The notes beneath the pieces were generated by a model. That model had not been told where the DNA came from. It saw nothing but the letters and a program-made list of their open reading frames with translations, and did not search any database. Shown here in pieces: positions 6,611 through 16,829 of a DNA stretch of 64,000 nt. Every line of letters starts with the position of its first letter. The first letter of the stretch is position 1. This DNA is from Ilex aquifolium. Lineage: Eukaryota > Streptophyta > Magnoliopsida > Aquifoliales > Aquifoliaceae. The stretch spans positions 27,530,311 through 27,594,310 of the forward strand of contig OX637403.1 in assembly GCA_951799425.1 (NCBI GenBank), given 5' to 3'. The position numbers were made by a program, and so were the translations under genes.

Positions 6611-6618
6611 TTGTTAAT

Positions 6619-7303
6619 TGATGATGCACAAATTGGTCTTCGTGCAAGATCAACAGTCAAGTATGCGTACGAGTATAATTAATAAGCAATTAATAGGCAA
6701 TCACTGGCGAAACTGTAAATAAGGAGATTAACACAAGAGATTTATAGTGGTTCGGTCTCGGATGACCTACGTCCACTCTTCGAACGGCGACAGGGGCCTG
6801 GATGTTTTATTGATCAATCATGATGGTACTCCGGAGAGTTTTACAATGCTTGAGAGGGAGAGAGAGAGAGAAGCTAACACTCAATAGTAAGCTCACAACT
6901 TACACTCTCAATCTCTAGAAACCTTTTCTGATGTGGCAGATCAGTCTAAACTGCAACCACAGAGCATACTAGGAATTTCAAGAGAACTCTCTCTCAAACT
7001 CACTCTTAGAAGCTTTGCTTCTTTCCTGATGCTAGAATACCCAAATGGGTGGTCTATTTATAGTAGTAGGGAATCAATCCTAGCCGTATAACGTGAATCA
7101 ATCCAAACCACACAAATTAAATAATACCTATCTAACATTCAAATCTAACATTCAAATTCTTATCTAACATTCAAATATTTATCTAACATTCTCTAGAATC
7201 TTCTCTTTAGTGGGCTTGGGCTTGGGTAACGGATTGGACTCTTCTTTGGGCTTTCTTGGCTTATTTGAATTGGGCTTTGGCCCAGTGAAATTCGGACTCG
7301 TCA
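6619..7303 (-). repeat. 3' LTR of the complete Tat element
   Basis: 685 bp, ends TG...CA. On the minus strand a TATA box CTATAAATAG lies at 7054-7063. The U3 part contains four copies of a 14-bp unit TCTAACATTCAAAT or close variants (about 7130-7195) and a GAATCTTC pair of heat-shock pentamers near 7197. Confidence 0.95.
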
Positions 7304-7320
7304 TTTGCCCCCCATGCCCC
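7304..7320 (-). other. Polypurine tract of the Tat element
   Basis: The minus strand reads GGGGCATGGGGGGCAAA directly before the 3' LTR, the position where plus-strand DNA priming occurs in LTR retrotransposons. Confidence 0.85.
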
Positions 7321-7663
7321 GAGCCTTTTATCTTTTCGAAAGGCAAGGGTCGAGGGCATGTGTTCATCTCTGTTTGAGTGAAACTGGATTTTCCTTGCCA
7401 TTCATGGTATCCTCTGACCCTCGTGGATTTGTTGTTTAGGGACTTTGCTGAACTTCCCAGTGTCGAAAAATATGTATTTATATATTTTTATCTGCTTCTC
7501 CATAAATAGATATTATTATTCCATCGTCCTCGTCTTTGCCCGCCTTCTGAGACTTTTTCTCAAATGGGGTTCTTCTGAATTTATCCAAGGAGCTAAACCA
7601 ATCTGGCTTCCTCAAGAAGCTTAGTGAGGCTTCTTTAAGAAGCTTTGTAAGGTTTTCCACCTC

Positions 7664-7672
7664 TATTTAAAG
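7664..7672 (+). promoter_or_regulatory. Candidate TATA box of the antisense gene
   Basis: TATTTAAAG lies 76 nt upstream of the ATG at 7748. A pyrimidine-rich stretch (about 7690-7730) lies between, as in plant core promoters. It is outside the LTR, so the antisense gene would have its own internal promoter. Called from position and sequence only. Confidence 0.5.
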
Positions 7673-7747
7673 GGCTCAAAAACACCGTTCATCTCATTTT
7701 TTCCTTCTTCCTTCTTCCCTCACTCTCTCCTTTTGTTACTTGAGAAC

Positions 7748-10292
7748 ATGAGGACTAGAGGCTCATTCATCCGTAAGGGTCTTCGCGTTGAAGGTTCCCA
7801 TGGGGAAGGGAGCTTGGCCGGCGGCACTCATGCCGATGGAGGCTTGCTAGGCGACACTGTTGGCGACAGAGGCGAAGCGGGCGGCGCTCAGGCCGAAGGA
7901 CAAGTGGGCGGCGCCCATTGTGGCAGCCCAGATGGTGTGCTTCGTGGCGCAGACGGTGGGAACGGACGGGCAGACGCACATCCTGTGGGCGGCTCCCCTT
8001 TGGGCTTCGGCCATTTTGGCGCCTGGTCTCGCGGTGGCTTTGGCGCAGCGCCGGTGACCCATGAGAGACCCTTTGGTACCATCTGTGGGGGGACAGGCGC
8101 GAGTACGAGGATTTCAAATAATCCTTTTGGCGTATTTAAAGGGACGCTGCGCCTGAGTGAGCGGCAGAGTGGGTCTCCAGGTGACGCCGAGAATGTCCGT
8201 TTTGGACTGGGTGGTGCTACAAGTACTTCAGGAGGTGTCCAGGATGCACTGGGCGGCGCCCATGGCATGGTTCAGTCCCCTCCTATCAAGTCTAGGAAGC
8301 GACCGATCAATGCCACGGATGGTCCTGGCTCTCAAGGTAGGTTCCCGGTACTTCCTTTTCTCTTTCATGGGTACGGGTATTCTTTTTTTATCAGAGTGTA
8401 ATTTTTCTTCTTGATGAATTTTTACCCAGACGAGCAGGAGACTGCCAAGGATCCTGAAGAAGGTCCGATTGATGACGGAGGCAGTCTTTCCGAGGTAGCC
8501 TCTCTCTTTAGCTATTTTAAGTATGACGAGGATATTTTGGAGTTGATTTCCTTGTATCGTATTCCTCCCTTGGTACTGTGCCGCCATGCGGAGGCTGATG
8601 AGTCAGCTTGCTGCGACTCTTCGGATGACATAGTGCTTTATGAGGGGGCCTTGGAGGCGGGTCTGAGATTCCCGATTCCCGGACCTATATGTCGGGTCTT
8701 TGAGCGTCTTTCCTTAGTTCCTGGGAAGCTGGCTCCGAATGGCTGGCGAGTTTTATTAGCTTTCTTTGCACTGTGGCGGTTGACCCACGGATCTAGTGCT
8801 CCTCCCCCGTTCGAGGAATTCTTGGTTACCTATATACTTCTGGAAAACCCCGTTTCACACCAGGGGTGGTACCGATTTTCCCCGAGGTTAGGGAGGAAGA
8901 AGTTTATTACTGGGCTCACCTCCAATTACCATAATTGGAAGAAGAAGTTCTTTTTTATTGGAGGCGAGTGGGCCTCCGAGTCCGATCGCGACAGGGTGCC
9001 TACCAGTTGGAGTACGATTCCAAAAACTAAGCAAGGTAAGGATTCTAACTTTTGACTTTTTCTTTGATTATCAAGTGTAACCATGTGCCTATCCTTACGA
9101 TGATTGTTTCCTTGCAGCTCCGCCAACCCTTACTGAGGACCAGAAGAGTCTACTTGAGATGGTCCTGAACAGCCCATGCAGGGGGCACTCCGAGATCATG
9201 TCAACAGTTGGCTGTTCCACAGCTTCCTTGAGACCGAAGAAGAAAGGTATTTTGACCATCGACTAGTCTCTTTGAATAGTCCGTGTAGTAGGATCCATTG
9301 GCTTACACTGTTTTCTTTAGGCCCTCCAATTGTCAGATCTTTTGTGGAAGAAGTGTATGTCTCCAGGACAGTTCCTTCTCCTTCTCCTCCTGCCCTCAAG
9401 AGGGCGAGGACAGACGCCGCTAGCTTGGATGGCCCTGCGGAGGCAGAGCCAGGCGATGCTCCTCCTTCCCCTCTAGCTGATATTCCGTCACCTTCGAGGG
9501 GCGGTCCTAGCGCCGTTGAGGCCGAGGTTCCGACTCCATGCTCTACTAGGGCAAAGGGTCCGCTTATTTCTCAGGAAGGTGCCTTATCGTCCATGCTTAG
9601 TAACGTGGAGTTGGCAAAGGAAAGATTATGTACCTTCGTGACCGGCGCTGAGGCTCGAGAGATAGCCTCCCTAGGTCCACAGGGAGTGGTCGACGCCGCC
9701 GTGGAAGGCTTTGCTCTGGTATGTCTTACATTCCTTCTTTGTATATGACTTTCTTCGGCATACCCGGGCTTAGTTTTTCATCTCTCTTTGTTTTGCCTTT
9801 GAATGTCAACAGGTGGCTGCTACTTTGCCTTACCTCTTCAATCATACTCTGACTATCGGGGATGTAGTCCAAGGTCGAGCAGCTGAGAGGCAGGCACGTG
9901 AGACTGCCGAGGACCAGCTTCGGCAAGAGCGGCAGGCACGGGAGAATGCTGTGGGGCTAGCTCGACAGGCGCGAGAGGATGCCGAGAAGCAGCTTGAGCT
10001 CGAGCGGCAGACACGAGAGAGTGCTGCTGAGCAGTTGAGGCTGTCACAGGCGAAGGTTATTCAGCTTGAGACTGACCTTCGAGTTGCACTTGAGAGAGCT
10101 GTCAGAGCGGAGGCTCAGAGGGATGCCGCTGAGAGAGCTAGGGCTAGTGCTTTTGTTGATGGCTATGAGGAGCTGAGGAGGAGGGCATCAGTATCATATC
10201 CTTATAATGATCTCTCTGACCTCAAGCCTTACGAGGCCCCTGAGTCTGATGACGACGGTGATTACGTGAGTGGAGACAGTGAGGGTCAGTAG
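7748..10292 (+). CDS. Antisense five-exon gene of the Tat element (Transposase_28-like)
   Basis: Exons 7748-8336, 8430-9035, 9118-9246, 9321-9718 and 9813-10292 join through four GT-AG introns (74 to 94 nt; phases 1,1,1,0) into 2202 nt: 733 aa plus a TAG stop. The short exons, clean junctions and exact frame argue for a real spliced gene. Residues 1-196 are Gly/Ala/His-rich with loose repeats and end in a basic patch (KSRKRP). Residues 197-398 (exon 2) resemble the plant 'putative gypsy-type transposon' family (Pfam Transposase_28), with the segments PICRVFERLSLVPGKLAPNG and GWYRFSPRLGRK. Exon 4 is Pro/Ser-rich with KRAR. Exon 5 starts a long Arg/Glu/Gln/Ala coiled coil (about residues 590-690) and ends acidic. 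Function is unknown. Antisense frames at this place are known in Tat elements; the splice model is my inference from sequence. Confidence 0.75.
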
Positions 10293-10351
10293 GGGTGTGA
10301 CTCTTTGTATTTTTTTTTTTTTTTGACAGACTATGTTTTTACCCTTTTGTA

Positions 10352-10369
10352 GAAGCTTCTAGAATATTC
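10352..10369. promoter_or_regulatory. Perfect heat-shock-element-like motif
   Basis: GAAGCTTCTAGAATATTC is four alternating GAA/TTC pentamers with 2-nt spacers, the ideal HSF binding arrangement. It is part of a 27-bp direct repeat (10344 and 10371 starts); the second copy keeps TTCTAGAA. It lies between the 3' ends of the antisense gene and gag-pol, so whether it regulates anything is open. Confidence 0.45.
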
Positions 10370-10501
10370 TTTTGTAAAAGCTTCTAGAATTTTGAATGAA
10401 ACACAATTATTTTGAGCAAATACTAAGAAACTTTATTTCATAATCCAAAGTGGATATTCGGACTAAGCAGTGGACACCACCTCATGACCTACTGCCCCCA
10501 G

Positions 10502-13500
10502 TTACTGATAGTATTTTTTCAAATGTTCTGCATTCCAGGGGTGGAGTAAGGCCTTTCCTTCAAAGTTCTGGATCTTGTAGGTGCCCGGCCTCACTACTTC
10601 TGTTATGAGGTAAGGTCCTTCCCAATTTGGTCCCAGTTTCCCCTCGCGTGCATCCTTTGTGGCGAGGATCACTTTTTTGAGGACCTGGTCCCCTGGTTGG
10701 AAGGAGCGAGGCTTCACCCTCGAATTGTAATACTTCGCCATGCGTCTTTTATACTCTGCGTTGCGAACCGTAGCCATCTCCCTTGCCTCCTCCACTAAGT
10801 CGAGGTTGATGCGGAGTCCTTCTTCGTTGGTGATGGGGTTGTGGTGTTGGACCCTTAGAGAGTGTACTCCTATCTCGACTGGGATGACTGCCTCAGTTCC
10901 AAAGGCGAGGGAGAAATGGGTCTCCCCAGTAGGAGCTCTTGGCGTGGTTCTGTAGGCCCACAATACGCCTGGTAGCTCGTCCACCCAAAGACCCTTCGCT
11001 CTTTCGAGCCTTGTCTTTAAGTTACGGAGCACCGTTCTCACCATGACCTCTGCTTGTCCATTTGCCTGCGGGTGTGCTGGGCTGGAGTGAGGTTGTTTTA
11101 TCTGAAGATCGGAGCAGAAAGAGTTGAGTAGTTTATTGTCGAATTGCTTCGCGTTGTCACTGACGATGGCGTGGGGTATCCCGAAGCGGCAGACCAGGTT
11201 CTTCCAGATGAAGTCTTTCACCTTTACCTCTGTTATTCTTGCTAAAGGTTCGGCTTCTGCCCATTTGGTGAAGTAGTCGACTGCCACCACCACGAATTTG
11301 CACTGTCCCTTGCTTAGAGGTAAGGGGCCTAGTATATCAATGCCCCATCTGGAGAAGGGCCATGGACTTATGATAGCTGTTAGCTCCTCCGGTGGTTGTC
11401 TAGACACAGTTGCGAAGCGTTGGCACTTGTCGCACTTTTTGGAGAACTCTTGGGCGTCCCTTGCCATGGAAGGCCAGAAGTAGCCTTGTCTGAGTGCCTT
11501 GTAGGCAAGGGAGCGCCCTCCAGAGTGGTTCCCGCAGATCCCTTCGTGAATCTCTCGTAGGGCATATTGAGCTTCTTCCGGTGCAAGGCACCTTAGCAAA
11601 GGTAAGGAATATCCTTTCTTATATAAGGTATCCTGCAGGATGGTGAACTTGGAGGCTCTCATCCTTAGTTTCCTGGCCTCTAACGGATCATCTGGTAGTA
11701 CACCTTCTTGGAGGTATGCCCTTACTGGGGTCATCCAACTCGACTCGATTGATGCACAGTTGACATTTGTGGTCACTATGTCCAACTTGCTTGGCTCGAG
11801 TTGGTGACCAATGAATGCTGGTTCCTCTTGTGAGGCTTGCAAGGTTGAGGCGAGTCTTGCAAGTGCATCGGCTGCCATGTTGTCTTCTCTGGGGATATGG
11901 CTAATCTGAAAGTAGTGGAACTTTGCCGTTAAACTTTTTGCTATAGCAAGGTACTCCTGCATCCTTGCTCCCTTTGCTTCGAACTCGCCGTTCACTTGGT
12001 TAACTACCAGCTGGGAGTCACTGTATGTGGCAAGTTGTTGGGCTTCCATTTCGGCTGCCAACCTTAATCCCGAGAGGAGGGCTTCATATTCCGCTTCATT
12101 GTTGGAGGCGAGAAAATGAAGTTTTACCGCATACTTGAGAGTGGTGCTATCTGGACTGATCAAGACTAGGCCTGCTCCTCCTCCCTCGTTGGTTGAGGAG
12201 CCATCAACGTAGAGTTTCCAGAGTGATGAAGAAGGCTGGGTGTCATCAAGGGTGGATGAGGAGGTTTGGGCGCCATCAGGAGTGGCTGAGGAGGTTTGGG
12301 CGTCATCAGGGGTGGCTGAAGAGACTTGTGCGCCATCAGGGGTGGCTGAGCGAGTCTCCTCCTTTGCTGGTGTAAGCTCGGCAATGAAATCCGCCAACAC
12401 TTGTGCTTTGATGGCCGCCCTTGGTTGATATTGAATGTCAAATTCACCAAGTTCCACTGCCCACTTAAGGAGTCTTCCGGATACGTCAAGCTTTCCCAGA
12501 ATTCTCTTCAGAGGCTGGTCTGTGACAACAACGACACTGTGACTCTGAAAGTAGTGTCGTAGGCGTCTTGCTGCTGAGATCAGGGCGAGTGCTAGCTTCT
12601 CAAGTTCAGAATATCTCACTTCTGCCCCCCTATATGCCCTGCTCACATAATAGACTGGCCTCTGCACTCCATCACTGTTCCTGATCAGAACTGAGCTCAC
12701 TGCCGATGAGGAGGCAGACAAGTACAAATACAAGATTTCTCCTGAAGTGGCATGCGAGAGGAGGGGAGGTGTAACTAAGTAAGCCTTGAGCCTCTGGAAG
12801 GCTTCCTCTGCTTCAGGTCCCCATTCAAAGGCCTTTCTGAGTATCTTGAAGAAAGGCAGACACTTGTCTGCGGATTTGGAGACGAATCTGTTAAGTGCTG
12901 CAATTCTTCCATTGAGGCGTTGGAGCTCCTTGGTTGAGGTTGGCGACTTCATGTCAAGGATTGCCTTGATCTTGTCAGGGTTCGCCTCAATTCCCCTTTG
13001 GTTGACCATAAAGCCTAAGAACTTTCCTGACCCCACGCCAAAAGCGCATTTCTCAGGATTTAGCTTCATGTGGTATGACCGTAGGACACTGAAGGTCTCT
13101 TGGAGATGGTTCACATGTTCTGCTGCGTCAAGACTCTTCACCAGCATGTCATCAACGTAGACTTCCATCGTTCGCCCAATCTGGGACTGGAACATTTTGT
13201 TTACCAGCCGCTGGTAGGTTGCCCCCGCATTCTTTAGCCCAAAGGGCATCACCCTATAGCAGTAGGTACCCTTTGGAGTAATAAAGGAAGTCTTCTCTTG
13301 GTCAGGGGGGTGCATGCTGATTTGGTTGTATCCAGAATAGGCATCCAGGAATGTGAGCAGTTCATGCCCTGCTGTGGCGTCGATGAGGAGATCGATCCGT
13401 GGTAACGGGTAGCTGTCTTTTGGGCACGCCTTGTTAAGGTCTGAGAAATCGACGCAAAGGCGCCACTTCCCATTAGTCTTAGTGACCATCACCACGTTGG

Positions 13501-16069
13501 AGAGCCACTCAGGATACGTTACTTCCCTGACGGCCCCGTTGTCTACTAGTTTCCCCACCTCTTTGTCCATAGCTTGGGCCCTTTCAGTGGATGCGCCCCT
13601 TAGCTTTTGGCGAATAGGCTTGTGGCGTGGGTCAACATTGAGTCGGTGTGTGACCACTTCTGGGTCGATGCCCTCAAGGTCTGCATGTGACCATGCAAAG
13701 ACGTCCATGTTTCTTTTCAAAAAATCTATCAGCGGGCCAACCAGATTTTCAGAAAGGGAAGAGCCAACGTATACTCTTCTGTCTGGGTGATCTTCATTCA
13801 GAACCACGGGGGTGAGCTCTTCCACCGGTTCTCCTCTTTCTATGGTGGAGTCATCCCTTGGGTCCAGGATTTCAACTTGCAAAGCTTCATGTGGCTTCCT
13901 GGTCTTCATGGAGGAGACATAGCATTCCCTAGCTGCTACCTGGTCTCCTCTGACCTCTCCAACTCCGTTAGGGGTTGGAAATCGGAGAATGAGGTGGTAT
14001 GTGGAGGGCACGGCTCTTAATGTGTTGAGAGCAGGTCGCCCTAGTATGATGTTATAAGCTGATGGACAGTCTATCACCAGAAAGTTGACCATGACTGAGG
14101 AGCTTCGGGGTGCTGCTCCGGCTGTGACTGGTAGGGTGATGGATCCTAGGGGGTACACCTTTTCCCCCGAGAACCCAATGAGGGGAGATCTGATGGATTG
14201 CAGTCTTTCCCTGCCCAAGTTGAGCTTGTCAAAAGCTTCTGCAAATAGGATGTCGGCAGAGCTGCCGCTGTCCACTAGGATTCTGCGCACTTGGAAATTG
14301 GCAACTGTCATGGTGAGCACTAGTGGGTCATCATGGGGGTGCTGAATTCCTTCTAGGTCCTTATCTGAGAAAGATATAACCTCCTTGGTGCCTTGCCTGG
14401 GCGCTTTGGACGGGCGTCCTTCGTCAAGGTGCCTTGCCTTCCTGGCATGGGCCTTCATGGCAGAGAGGGACTCTCCACCTCCTACTAATCCTCCCGAGAT
14501 GGTGTGAATTTCCCCAACGGGGTGTTGCTCTTCCTGGTTATGGGGTGGTGGCGGAGCCTGTCCTCTACCAGCAACATAATGGCGTAGGTGGCCGCGTTGA
14601 ATAAGATCCTCAATTTGCCTTTTGAGTTCATAGCAGTCGTCGGTGTCGTGCCCGTGGTCGCGGTGGAAGCGGCAATGCTTGTTAGGATTTCTGCGATTGG
14701 GAGGGGACTTCATCTTCCTTGGCCACTTCACTGCGGGGTCATCCTGAATTTGGAATAGGATATGCCCGAGGTCGGCATTGAGGGGTGTGAAGGCTTGTCG
14801 ATCCTTCTGAGGGGCTGGGCCTAACCGGTCTCTGACGGGAACCTTCTCTGTTCTACCGTGCTTGTTGCTAGCTTCCTTCTTATCGTCCCTCTCTCTTTCC
14901 TTCCTCTTGTCTCCAGATCTGGAGGACTCACCTCGCCTGGCCCTTGTGATGTCCTCCGCGTTTATATATTTCTGGGCTTTCGCTAGCAGCTCTGGCATGC
15001 TCTTTGGTGGGCGCTTCATCACCGAGAAAAGGAAGCTTGATGAGCGGAGACCTCCCAGGAAGGCAGTCATCGTCACTTTGTCATCGGGCTCATCAACCTC
15101 AAGTACCTCCTCGTTAAAACGAGTGAGGTAGCTCCTCAGGCTCTCCTCACGGTCCTGTTTTATGCTAAGCAGGTGGGTGACTGGCTTCTGGTGGCGACGT
15201 CCCCCGATGAAATGGGACACGAATGACCTGCTTAGCTCATCAAAGGAGGCAATGGATGCAGGGGAGAGCCTAGCAAACCATTGTCGGGCGGATCCCTTTA
15301 GTGTGGTTGGGAACGCCCTGCACATGATTTCGTCTGGGACGTTGTGCAACTGCATCAGAGTTTTGTAGGTGTCGAGATGGTCCAGCGGGTCCTTTGCTTT
15401 TGTTCCATCAAAGACCTCAACAGAAGGCATTTTAAACTTTTGAGGGAGGGGGTAGTTCGACACGTCCGGCTTGAAAGGTGTGTCAGTTCGCCTAACAAGA
15501 TAGTCCACAGTCTCAGGTCCTTGTGCTTTCATGGCGTTGAAGACGTCACCTAGCTGGTTTTGCACTTCCTTGATTTTCTTATCCCAAAGGTTGGGAGCTC
15601 CTCTGGGATGGTCATGAAAGTGACTCCCATGCTCCACGCTTTGGTTTTCGCCCTCGTCCTCTTGGAGAGGAGGGCCCTCACCATGGGAAGCAGGAGGAGG
15701 GGGTAGAGGTCCTTCATGACGAGCCTCCTTGTATAGAGCCTCCCTGTGCATGGCGCCTGGGGGGACTCCAATGGGGGCGTCCAATCTTACGGGGGCACCT
15801 AGATGTGGAGCATCAGGGCGTGGAACTCCTGGACCCCCAGGACGTGGGACTCCTCCAAGCTGTGCTCCATCGAGTTGTGCTCCTCCTCGTCCGGCGAGCA
15901 TAAGTTGTAACATCTGCTGGTTTTGGGCCACCAGCTGCTGCATGGTCTCCAGCATTTGTTGAGGATTCGGAGCTGGAGCATTTGGCACATGGTTGACAGG
16001 CGGAGGAACCTCCTCCTCTCGTGGAGGATTGCCTTCATGCTGGTTCATGGATCTGGTAGGGATCGCCAT
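10502..16069 (-). CDS. Gag-pol polyprotein of Tat element, intact
   Basis: The frame has 1855 codons plus stop. The chosen start is the ATG at 16069-16067 (MAIPTRSMNQ); the frame is open further upstream, but only into PBS and LTR sequence. In order: Gag core (WFARLSP near residue 262), CX2HX4HX4C zinc knuckle (CRFHRDHGHDTDDC, about 465), aspartic protease (ILVDSGSSAD, about 598), reverse transcriptase (FGLKNAGATYQ, YVDD near 971), gypsy RNase H (about 1090-1190) whose first catalytic Asp is replaced (YLSASSSA), a linker of four 10-residue repeats, a second archaeal-type RNase H (YVDGSS near 1290, NNEAEYEAL, YSDSQL, PREDN), integrase with HHCC zinc finger (about 1510-1555), D-D-E (GIDILGP, VSDNAKQFD, NGQAEV) and a GPY/F-like end (WEGPYLI). 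No chromodomain. All parts needed for retrotransposition appear present. Confidence 0.95.
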   Translation of the reverse strand: MAIPTRSMNQHEGNPPREEEVPPPVNHVPNAPAPNPQQMLETMQQLVAQNQQMLQLMLAGRGGAQLDGAQLGGVPRPGGPGVPRPDAPHLGAPVRLDAPIGVPPGAMHREALYKEARHEGPLPPPPASHGEGPPLQEDEGENQSVEHGSHFHDHPRGAPNLWDKKIKEVQNQLGDVFNAMKAQGPETVDYLVRRTDTPFKPDVSNYPLPQKFKMPSVEVFDGTKAKDPLDHLDTYKTLMQLHNVPDEIMCRAFPTTLKGSARQWFARLSPASIASFDELSRSFVSHFIGGRRHQKPVTHLLSIKQDREESLRSYLTRFNEEVLEVDEPDDKVTMTAFLGGLRSSSFLFSVMKRPPKSMPELLAKAQKYINAEDITRARRGESSRSGDKRKERERDDKKEASNKHGRTEKVPVRDRLGPAPQKDRQAFTPLNADLGHILFQIQDDPAVKWPRKMKSPPNRRNPNKHCRFHRDHGHDTDDCYELKRQIEDLIQRGHLRHYVAGRGQAPPPPHNQEEQHPVGEIHTISGGLVGGGESLSAMKAHARKARHLDEGRPSKAPRQGTKEVISFSDKDLEGIQHPHDDPLVLTMTVANFQVRRILVDSGSSADILFAEAFDKLNLGRERLQSIRSPLIGFSGEKVYPLGSITLPVTAGAAPRSSSVMVNFLVIDCPSAYNIILGRPALNTLRAVPSTYHLILRFPTPNGVGEVRGDQVAARECYVSSMKTRKPHEALQVEILDPRDDSTIERGEPVEELTPVVLNEDHPDRRVYVGSSLSENLVGPLIDFLKRNMDVFAWSHADLEGIDPEVVTHRLNVDPRHKPIRQKLRGASTERAQAMDKEVGKLVDNGAVREVTYPEWLSNVVMVTKTNGKWRLCVDFSDLNKACPKDSYPLPRIDLLIDATAGHELLTFLDAYSGYNQISMHPPDQEKTSFITPKGTYCYRVMPFGLKNAGATYQRLVNKMFQSQIGRTMEVYVDDMLVKSLDAAEHVNHLQETFSVLRSYHMKLNPEKCAFGVGSGKFLGFMVNQRGIEANPDKIKAILDMKSPTSTKELQRLNGRIAALNRFVSKSADKCLPFFKILRKAFEWGPEAEEAFQRLKAYLVTPPLLSHATSGEILYLYLSASSSAVSSVLIRNSDGVQRPVYYVSRAYRGAEVRYSELEKLALALISAARRLRHYFQSHSVVVVTDQPLKRILGKLDVSGRLLKWAVELGEFDIQYQPRAAIKAQVLADFIAELTPAKEETRSATPDGAQVSSATPDDAQTSSATPDGAQTSSSTLDDTQPSSSLWKLYVDGSSTNEGGGAGLVLISPDSTTLKYAVKLHFLASNNEAEYEALLSGLRLAAEMEAQQLATYSDSQLVVNQVNGEFEAKGARMQEYLAIAKSLTAKFHYFQISHIPREDNMAADALARLASTLQASQEEPAFIGHQLEPSKLDIVTTNVNCASIESSWMTPVRAYLQEGVLPDDPLEARKLRMRASKFTILQDTLYKKGYSLPLLRCLAPEEAQYALREIHEGICGNHSGGRSLAYKALRQGYFWPSMARDAQEFSKKCDKCQRFATVSRQPPEELTAIISPWPFSRWGIDILGPLPLSKGQCKFVVVAVDYFTKWAEAEPLARITEVKVKDFIWKNLVCRFGIPHAIVSDNAKQFDNKLLNSFCSDLQIKQPHSSPAHPQANGQAEVMVRTVLRNLKTRLERAKGLWVDELPGVLWAYRTTPRAPTGETHFSLAFGTEAVIPVEIGVHSLRVQHHNPITNEEGLRINLDLVEEAREMATVRNAEYKRRMAKYYNSRVKPRSFQPGDQVLKKVILATKDAREGKLGPNWEGPYLITEVVRPGTYKIQNFEGKALLHPWNAEHLKKYYQ
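12230..12349 (-). repeat. 30-bp minisatellite coding for the linker between the RNase H domains
   Basis: Four in-frame units of ten residues (ATPDGAQVSS, ATPDDAQTSS, ATPDGAQTSS, STLDDTQPSS) separate the gypsy RNase H from the archaeal-type RNase H. Being a multiple of three, unit gain or loss would keep the frame. Confidence 0.85.
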
Positions 16070-16117
16070 TGTTTCAGTAGAGAACTGGATTGTGTTTAGG
16101 AATGAGAATTCTGTTGT

Positions 16118-16135
16118 TTCCCACAGACGGCGCCA
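16118..16135 (-). other. Primer-binding site of the complete Tat element
   Basis: TTCCCACAGACGGCGCCA on the plus strand gives a minus-strand PBS beginning TGGCGCCGT, three bases from the LTR end. It is identical to the PBS at 1938-1955. Confidence 0.85.
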
Positions 16136-16138
16136 AAC

Positions 16139-16823
16139 TGATGATGCACAAATTGGTCTTCGTGCAAGATCAACAGTCAAGTATGCGTACGAGTATAATT
16201 AATAAGCAATTAATAGGCAATCACTGGCGAAACTGTAAATAAGGAGATTAACACAAGAGATTTATAGTGGTTCGGTCTCGGATGACCTACGTCCACTCTT
16301 CGAACGGCGACAGGGGCCTGGATGTTTTATTGATCAATCATGATGGTACTCCGGAGAGTTTTACAATGCTTGAGAGGGAGAGAGAGAGAGAAGCTAACAC
16401 TCAATAGTAAGCTCACAACTTACACTCTCAATCTCTAGAAACCTTTTCTGATGTGGCAGATCAGTCTAAACTGCAACCACAGAGCATACTAGGAATTTCA
16501 AGAGAACTCTCTCTCAAACTCACTCTTAGAAGCTTTGCTTCTTTCCTGATGCTAGAATACCCAAATGGGTGGTCTATTTATAGTAGTAGGGAATCAATCC
16601 TAGCCGTATAACGTGAATCAATCCAAACCACACAAATTAAATAATACCTATCTAACATTCAAATCTAACATTCAAATTCTTATCTAACATTCAAATATTT
16701 ATCTAACATTCTCTAGAATCTTCTCTTTAGTGGGCTTGGGCTTGGGTAACGGATTGGACTCTTCTTTGGGCTTTCTTGGCTTATTTGAATTGGGCTTTGG
16801 CCCAGTGGAATTCGGACTCGTCA
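16139..16823 (-). repeat. 5' LTR of the complete Tat element
   Basis: 685 bp, essentially identical to the LTR at 6619-7303. Minus-strand TATA box CTATAAATAG at 16574-16583 would drive the genomic RNA. Followed by the TTAAT duplication at 16824-16828. Confidence 0.95.
16574..16583 (-). promoter_or_regulatory. TATA box of the 5' LTR
   Basis: CTATAAATAG on the minus strand, a perfect TATA consensus, about 435 nt upstream of the U5 end. It should set the start of the retrotransposon genomic RNA. Confidence 0.7.
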
Positions 16824-16829
16824 TTAATA

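Follow-up and report, generated by a model that had tools for sequence, protein, structure and literature searches.

We refer to the whole analysed stretch of 64,000 nt as the window. It contains an LTR retrotransposon at positions 6619–16823, inserted with its gag-pol on the minus strand and flanked by a target-site duplication, TTAAT, at 6614–6618 on the left and 16824–16828 on the right. Both minus-strand LTRs, the 3′ LTR at 6619–7303 and the 5′ LTR at 16139–16823, are 685 bp long. They differ at a single one of 685 sites, so the element is young; this single difference corresponds to roughly 50 thousand years if plants substitute at 1.3e-8 per site and year. A polypurine tract, read directly on the minus strand, adjoins the 3′ LTR (7304–7320), and the primer-binding site TGGCGCCGTCTGTGGG (minus-strand letters) lies at 16120–16135. 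One open minus-strand frame (10502–16198, stop to stop) encodes gag, RT, RNase H, RVT_3 and integrase, with Pfam matches to Retrotrans_gag, RVT_1, RT_RNaseH, RVT_3, Integrase_H2C2 and rve; no Pfam match to a protease is listed in this frame.

The gag-RT-RNaseH-integrase order together with a second, RVT_3-type RNase H is the hallmark of Retand/Tat elements, and both are present in the window element. The region between pol and the 3′ LTR (7304–10501, 3198 bp) and the LTRs (685 bp) have lengths inside the ranges published for Retand elements, 2,933–6,566 bp and 315–1,194 bp, respectively (PMC11963269). An antisense TRP28-type frame, judged by position and homology, is also present in the region between pol and the 3′ LTR. 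By its architecture, on which the lineage name is based, the element is a Retand-like (Tat) Ty3/gypsy retrotransposon.

The antisense gene sits on the plus strand between pol and the 3′ LTR. Five plus-strand exons (7748–10292) join to 2202 nt, i.e. 733 codons and a stop codon, without an internal stop. Exon 1 (7748–8336) is Gly/Ala-rich, variable in length among copies and has a basic patch towards its end; exon 2 (8430–9035) carries the TRP28 (PF04195-like) region; exon 3 spans 9118–9246; exon 4 (9321–9718) is basic and Pro-rich and then has a conserved stretch; exon 5 (9813–10292) encodes a heptad-like stretch (coiled-coil type, by eye), an acidic tail and the stop codon. Introns 1 to 4, also read on the plus strand (8337–8429, 9036–9117, 9247–9320 and 9719–9812), are 93, 82, 74 and 94 nt long and have phases 1, 1, 1 and 0. 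All four are GT-AG introns of 61–65% AT, and each contains an in-frame stop when read through. The TATA-like sequence TATTTAAA (7664–7671, plus strand), putatively the core promoter for this gene, ends 76 nt before the ATG. At the other end a spacer of 209 bp (10293–10501) separates the gene from pol, the two being convergent. The initial annotation had proposed a gene of five exons, four GT-AG introns and 733 codons opposite gag-pol, with a TATA-like box 76 nt upstream; this model turned out to be exact, and the box is where it was described.

A spliced frame of this length could in principle arise by chance. In the test of this possibility the thresholds for donors and acceptors were set at the lowest score that each kind reaches in the gene's four introns, with splice weights for plants. 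Four donors and 11 acceptors exceed these thresholds in 7701–10350; all four donors are used by the gene, and the best spliced frame of the region is the one of 733 codons. Among 100 simulated first-order Markov sequences the best frame had a median length of 80 codons and never exceeded 154. In 34 tests covering both strands of 17 other stretches of the window, no frame was longer than 249 codons, and the opposite (gag-pol) strand of 7701–10350 gave 126 codons with no donor above threshold. Origin by chance was therefore rejected.

Sister copies were collected in a genome search (800 Mb, 103 contigs) with positions 8000–10000 as the query. The search gave 40 places in 41 rows, i.e. the window and 39 others, and all 39 others were fetched. 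These are the best 40 of 595 first-look candidates; as only these 40 were scored, the list favours close copies. The copy counts leave out L001–L008, all of them either the window or truncated versions of places among those fetched. The spliced frame runs uninterrupted from ATG to stop in 35 of the 39 listed copies (the exceptions are L032, L039, L041 and L042), and all eight splice dinucleotides are kept in 38 (intron 2 of L044 ends in AA). Exon 1 has changed its length, in frame, in 12 copies; L032, L042 and L046 are the three with a length change in another exon. Stop codons or shifted splice sites in most sister copies had been named, together with a lack of spliced reads, as grounds for abandoning the gene; with these counts the opposite is the case, and the view that the gene was kept intact in a recently moved family holds for most of the copies. 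Intactness in young copies by itself says little.

For the identity of the product, the Pfam cut-off for Transposase_28 (PF04195) is 26.2 bits, and the window protein scores 18.4 bits as a whole and 21.1 bits with exon 2 alone, in both cases below the cut-off. The protein is homologous to a family found elsewhere in the genome, family B (best E-value 9e-62, with L056 at 34% identity), and the L056 exon reaches 48.4 bits. Thus, the proposed likeness to Transposase_28 stands by way of family B and does not stand on the protein's own score.

The PF04195 profile had at least 150 hits in the genome, among 5837 first-look candidates. Twelve loci were fetched (L048–L050 and L055–L063), with L055, L056, L060 and L061 making up family B. 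Proteins of family B are 33–39% identical to the window protein over long aligned stretches (L061, 53% over 125 columns), and those of families C and D 24–30%. The basic patches, coiled coil and acidic tail pointed out earlier for the window protein were seen again, the coiled coil as a heptad-like last exon, and all three recur in these distant relatives. Tandem repeats were reported in the scanned stretches of L038, L040, L044, L045, L046, L055, L056 and L061, and none in those of the window copy, L020 and L031; the layout of the protein is a conserved domain plus a variable region with tandem peptide repeats in several copies. Neither viral contigs nor prokaryote genomes or plasmids yielded a relative in the searches, and none came up among solved structures.

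Introns in the relatives were searched for with reading frames fixed only on either side, and the best-scoring intron was taken. For intron 2 the top choice has phase 1 in all ten testable relatives (12 in all; L055 and L062 excluded), and for intron 4 it has phase 0 in all eight (L048, L049, L050 and L059 excluded). Five gene models were aligned, those of the window and of four of the 12 relatives (L056, L061, L057 and L058; L063, a model without an acceptor, was left out). Intron 2 falls in columns 411–413 and intron 4 in column 670 in 5/5, with the second-ranked intron 2 donor used for L058 (same phase and acceptor) and the third-ranked intron 3 candidate for L057. Intron 3 has phase 1 in all five models at columns 472–501, a poorly aligned stretch where its position in relatives is uncertain. 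It is perhaps shared; since its top choice has phase 1 in just five of eight testable relatives, one of them (L050) with a weak and implausible intron of 335 nt, we do not claim that it is conserved. Intron 1 has no equivalent in L055 of family B, which reads through the site in one frame. Introns 2 and 4, common in position and phase to families B, C and D, are old, judging from relatives at about 24–38% identity. Three of the four aligned relatives, L056, L057 and L058, have an early stop in the last exon and so look like decayed gene copies; the next 2 kb at L057 hold another TRP28 frame in the same orientation (40.8 bits). At all four family B loci pol follows downstream of the gene and antisense to it; near families C and D it was found in 0/8 on the fetched stretches of 3.5–3.7 kb.

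Reverse transcription is expected to remove introns. The exon 2/intron 2 border, searched for genome-wide as a pattern with up to three mismatches, occurs in 83 copies (82 with GT, one with GC), and the spliced junctions 2 and 4, searched for in the same way, occur in none. All 120 matches of a 429-nt query spliced over junctions 2 and 3 (matches from the best 40 of 284 candidates) end at or within a few bases of exon borders. Taken together, these searches give no sign of spliced antisense RNA being copied back into DNA. The initial annotation had explained the survival of the introns by genomic RNA being the other strand, and this explanation is supported by the gag-pol strand having no donor above threshold and by no intron-less copy being found in these searches. 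We propose that the introns are protected because the gene sits on the strand that escapes reverse transcription: only gag-pol-sense RNA would be copied, and in it they are not introns. A retroelement gene could in this way keep its introns across long divergence through its place on the uncopied strand.

The 39 listed sister copies differ in what lies next to the gene. The pol of the window element adjoins it in 19, a distant pol in three (L020, L037 and L045), and 17 are essentially without pol. In these 17 copies unrelated sequence separates the gene from the 5′ LTR. Of the stop-to-stop frame, no more than roughly the first 56 codons survive in that interval (much of this being leader), six copies keep its last 13 codons there, and L043 also retains part of gag. 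Four of the 17 were fetched on the other side as well, where the second LTR was found, giving about 5.6–6.4 kb end to end. The LTRs of three of them differ at 0/654, 0/674 and 2/679 sites; the 16 differences counted for L051/L021 include end misalignment and were not used as an age. The frame is uninterrupted in 16 of the 17 pol-less copies, and in 15 all splice sites are kept too. These copies look like recent elements that borrow their enzymes and have the antisense gene as their only sizeable gene. The proportion of 17/39 calls for caution, as the copies were searched for with the antisense gene itself. With an LTR query, whose rows are the best 40 of 2555 candidates, we read 18 LTR pairs from the positions in 40 rows: 12 full-size, four gene-bearing mini copies and two short. 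The short pairs, C20:21156949 and C6:38556867, have 3.4 kb between LTR starts and no match to the exon 2/intron 2 border pattern, which suggests that some derivatives lack the gene. Whether the protein benefits the very copy encoding it could be tested naturally in the gag-pol-less copies, and the answer would bear on the role of TRP28 proteins.

The gene and its neighbours do not always have the same relatives. L020 and L037 carry genes 97.6 and 95.6% identical to that of the window, next to a pol of 76% protein identity with saturated silent sites; in L045 a pol at a silent distance of 1.19 stands beside a 97% gene. Family B has the reverse pattern: its integrase end has 85–92% protein identity (silent distance 0.67–0.99), and its antisense protein mostly 33–39%. 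Upstream, copies of the L021 and L032 types have another leader, which meets the common gene at the ATG and contains a TTTTTAAG of its own that begins 64 nt ahead of this codon; there is no BLAST match between this leader and that of the window, and a forced alignment gives a weak resemblance. The histories of gene, upstream region and pol are partly separate, with gene and pol exchanged between lineages.

As a separate observation, the AGAAGCTTCT palindrome and a heat-shock element are enriched in non-coding parts of the window element. Considered as the target of the protein, both are absent from the examined stretches of the mini copy L021 and were set aside as a lead only; the absence of the repeated palindrome there means that one fixed target motif is not supported.

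Selection was estimated at two depths. Within the family, plain dN/dS among cluster heads is 0.56, with a silent-site difference of 0.051 and an intron difference of 0.025. When mutation types are allowed for, 97 shared missense changes are seen at variable sites versus 99.7 expected, and 175 singletons versus 168.4. Within-family missense change is thus near the neutral expectation, and the ratio of 0.56 is largely mutation bias. Premature stops at variable sites are depleted, with three seen versus 15.8 expected (singletons, 3 versus 10.8; shared, 0 versus 5.0). In families C and D the dN/dS of the TRP28 exon is 0.10–0.25 in 20 of 21 pairs from seven loci, several of them rough as dS is near or above 1, and 0.40 at a dS of 0.05 in the remaining pair, L050–L063 (L062 left out). 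Three family B pairs have 0.22, 0.22 and 0.42 (L061 left out), and between the window and family B silent sites are saturated. By these ratios the TRP28 exon is clearly under purifying selection in the distant families. The selected function suggested at the outset is therefore supported by the low dN/dS of related families and by the depletion of stops, and not by missense change within the family.

We put the probability at a little under 0.6 that the locus carries an old, intron-containing accessory gene of Retand elements that has its own promoter, is spliced by the host and has a TRP28 product, acting, less certainly, as a nuclear, self-associating chromatin- or DNA-binding regulator against silencing. 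The sequence establishes the spliced frame and the intactness of this frame among sister copies, as well as introns 2 and 4 shared with distant relatives, purifying selection in those relatives, retention after loss of nearly all of gag-pol, and exchange between lineages; the further steps are predictions. The gene would be transcribed from its own promoter opposite gag-pol and spliced by the host, and translation would give a TRP28 protein that has basic patches, is heptad-like in the part encoded by the last exon and carries an acidic tail. With less certainty, this protein may be a nuclear, self-associating regulator that binds chromatin or DNA; DNA binding is predicted for TRP28 residues (PMC11963269). 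It might favour the element's own expression, most plausibly by countering host silencing, as VANC does for VANDAL. A regulator working on the chromatin of its own copies would explain the conserved domain, the variable part, the exchange between lineages and the retention without gag-pol. Against this reading, the two short LTR pairs seem to manage without the gene. A narrower proposal, which we consider possible but doubtful, is that of an anti-silencing gene acting in favour of its own copy, an LTR-retrotransposon counterpart of VANC. Its antisense place would keep host-type introns and regulated expression through unending cycles of reverse transcription; as it would mainly help its own copy, it would be kept without gag-pol and traded between lineages as a module.

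The best-surviving alternative, in our estimate unlikely, is a nuclear regulator of the HBZ type, that is, an antisense spliced protein that damps sense transcription and holds the element at a tolerated level. HBZ of HTLV-1, a spliced antisense product, inhibits transcription that depends on Tax and c-Jun (PMC1459196), and the gene described here resembles it in its antisense orientation, its introns, its heptad-like C-terminal part and its acidic and basic stretches; regulatory roles have also been proposed by Vicient (PMC11963269). HBZ starts in the 3′ LTR, however, whereas here the TATA-like box and the ATG lie outside, 361 and 445 nt inward from the LTR boundary, and retention of a repressor by gag-pol-less derivatives is harder to explain. 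Improbable as well is a replication helper made from the antisense RNA, serving, for example, nuclear entry of the cDNA complex or guidance of integration. The near universality of the frame in recently active Retand elements fits a helper (PMC11963269), and nuclear entry of the pre-integration complex has been raised by the authors of a review (PMC7264820); a helper that is freely shared, though, need not stay in borrowers of gag-pol, yet the gene is kept in the 17 of 39 copies (found with the gene as the query).

The two readings in which the protein matters least fare worse. The antisense RNA itself could matter, through double-stranded RNA or interference, with the frame incidental. Antisense RNA as a regulator is raised in PMC7264820, and near-neutral missense change within the family would suit it; the dN/dS of 0.10–0.25 in 20 of 21 C/D pairs, the depletion of stops, the in-frame length changes of exon 1 and the conserved intron phases all speak against it, and we regard it as very unlikely. 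We find it at least as hard to credit that the introns are real and the gene is silent now, in copies too young for decay. LTRs differing at 1/685 sites and missense change near neutral agree with such a state, but stops are depleted even within the family, and introns 2 and 4 shared across long divergence, together with low dN/dS, indicate that expression was needed over most of the gene's history. A recently caught host gene carried as a passenger, which introns and promoter-like upstream sequence might bring to mind, was rejected, because TRP28 frames are nearly universal in Retand elements (PMC11963269) and all four family B loci have, antisense to pol, a relative that shares these introns.

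The initial annotation had noted that Tat elements can carry an extra antisense frame between integrase and the 3′ LTR, and this is an already described Retand trait: antisense TRP28 frames were reported in 97% of recently active Retand clusters, along with elements that lack gag or pol domains and still carry TRP28 (Vicient 2025, PMC11963269). The gene of the window agrees with those frames in its position between pol and the 3′ LTR, its antisense orientation, TRP28, the sizes of the LTRs and of the pol–3′ LTR region, and the single gag-pol frame. It differs in its five exons, in its partly conserved introns, in its exchange between pol lineages and in its retention, in the window family, by copies that have lost most of gag-pol. 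The published survey worked with ORF Finder, and the word 'intron' has no occurrence in its main text (PMC11963269). Provided that expression is as predicted, the gene will have been split into pieces in surveys of unbroken frames. We found no report of introns in these antisense genes in the literature searched, which consisted mostly of titles and abstracts and lay outside the primary papers on Grande and on extra ORFs; within that literature, the antisense TRP28 frame is known in Retand and the conserved introns are the new part.

Grande gene23, RIRE2 and ORF4 of the Silene Retand element are antisense accessory frames of the same class (PMC7264820). According to this review, the Grande product is nuclear and its gene is transcribed from its own promoter. 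The review, published in 2020, calls for a search for spliced antisense transcripts; in contrast to the gene described here, it names no intron for these frames by word search, and the primary papers may do so. Ogre elements, with a spliced intron in the sense direction, are likewise plant Ty3/gypsy elements in which splicing matters (PMC6317226). HTLV-1 HBZ is also an antisense retroelement gene, spliced opposite gag-pol (PMC1459196), but it starts in the 3′ LTR and belongs to an animal retrovirus; the comparison concerns possible function. The same applies to VANC, for which DNA binding and demethylation have been demonstrated in VANDAL elements (PMC5735166, PMC10398659): VANDAL is a DNA transposon, and VANC is compared for its function rather than as a homologue. 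Like the gene described here, VANC is an accessory gene of a transposable element, with introns and with a conserved domain next to a variable region rich in tandem repeats. Both diversify fast, in elements whose non-coding parts diverge quickly (PMC5735166, PMC10398659). We infer that VANC is the closest working model for how the antisense gene may act.

Three sister copies of the element that lack gag-pol (L023, L024 and L026) lie within ∼27 kb on contig C3 of the same genome (46928577-46955684) and, among the matches listed, form a local cluster. Two short LTR pairs of the element's family, with LTRs 3.4 kb apart in each, were found at C20:21156949-21161006 and C6:38556867-38560902; neither matched the pattern for the exon 2/intron 2 border of the antisense gene (up to three mismatches allowed), and the two are perhaps a second, shorter class of derivatives. 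Inside the gag-pol frame of the window element there is a 30-bp tandem repeat (12237-12350), whose number of units appears to vary among sister copies.

Heat-shock-type sites and a recurring palindrome were located at window positions 10352-10369, 7615-7645, 7008 and 16528. The whole window contains only two perfect three-unit heat-shock-type sites, which overlap (GAAGCTTCTAGAATATTC) and are situated a short way 3′ of the antisense gene. The non-coding parts of the element carry repeated occurrences of AGAAGCTT/AAGCTTCT; this repeat is absent from the examined stretches of the mini copy L021, which have repeats of their own, centred on GAGCTC.

Downstream of L057, a distant TRP28-bearing relative (family C), the stretch L064 contains a further TRP28 frame (40.8 bits). 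It has the same orientation as L057's own TRP28 frame, and family C elements may thus have two TRP28 genes each.

At the window edge, a partial gag region of a second gypsy element (2-1225, − strand), truncated by the window boundary, aligns with residues 240-659 of the window element's frame at 32% identity.
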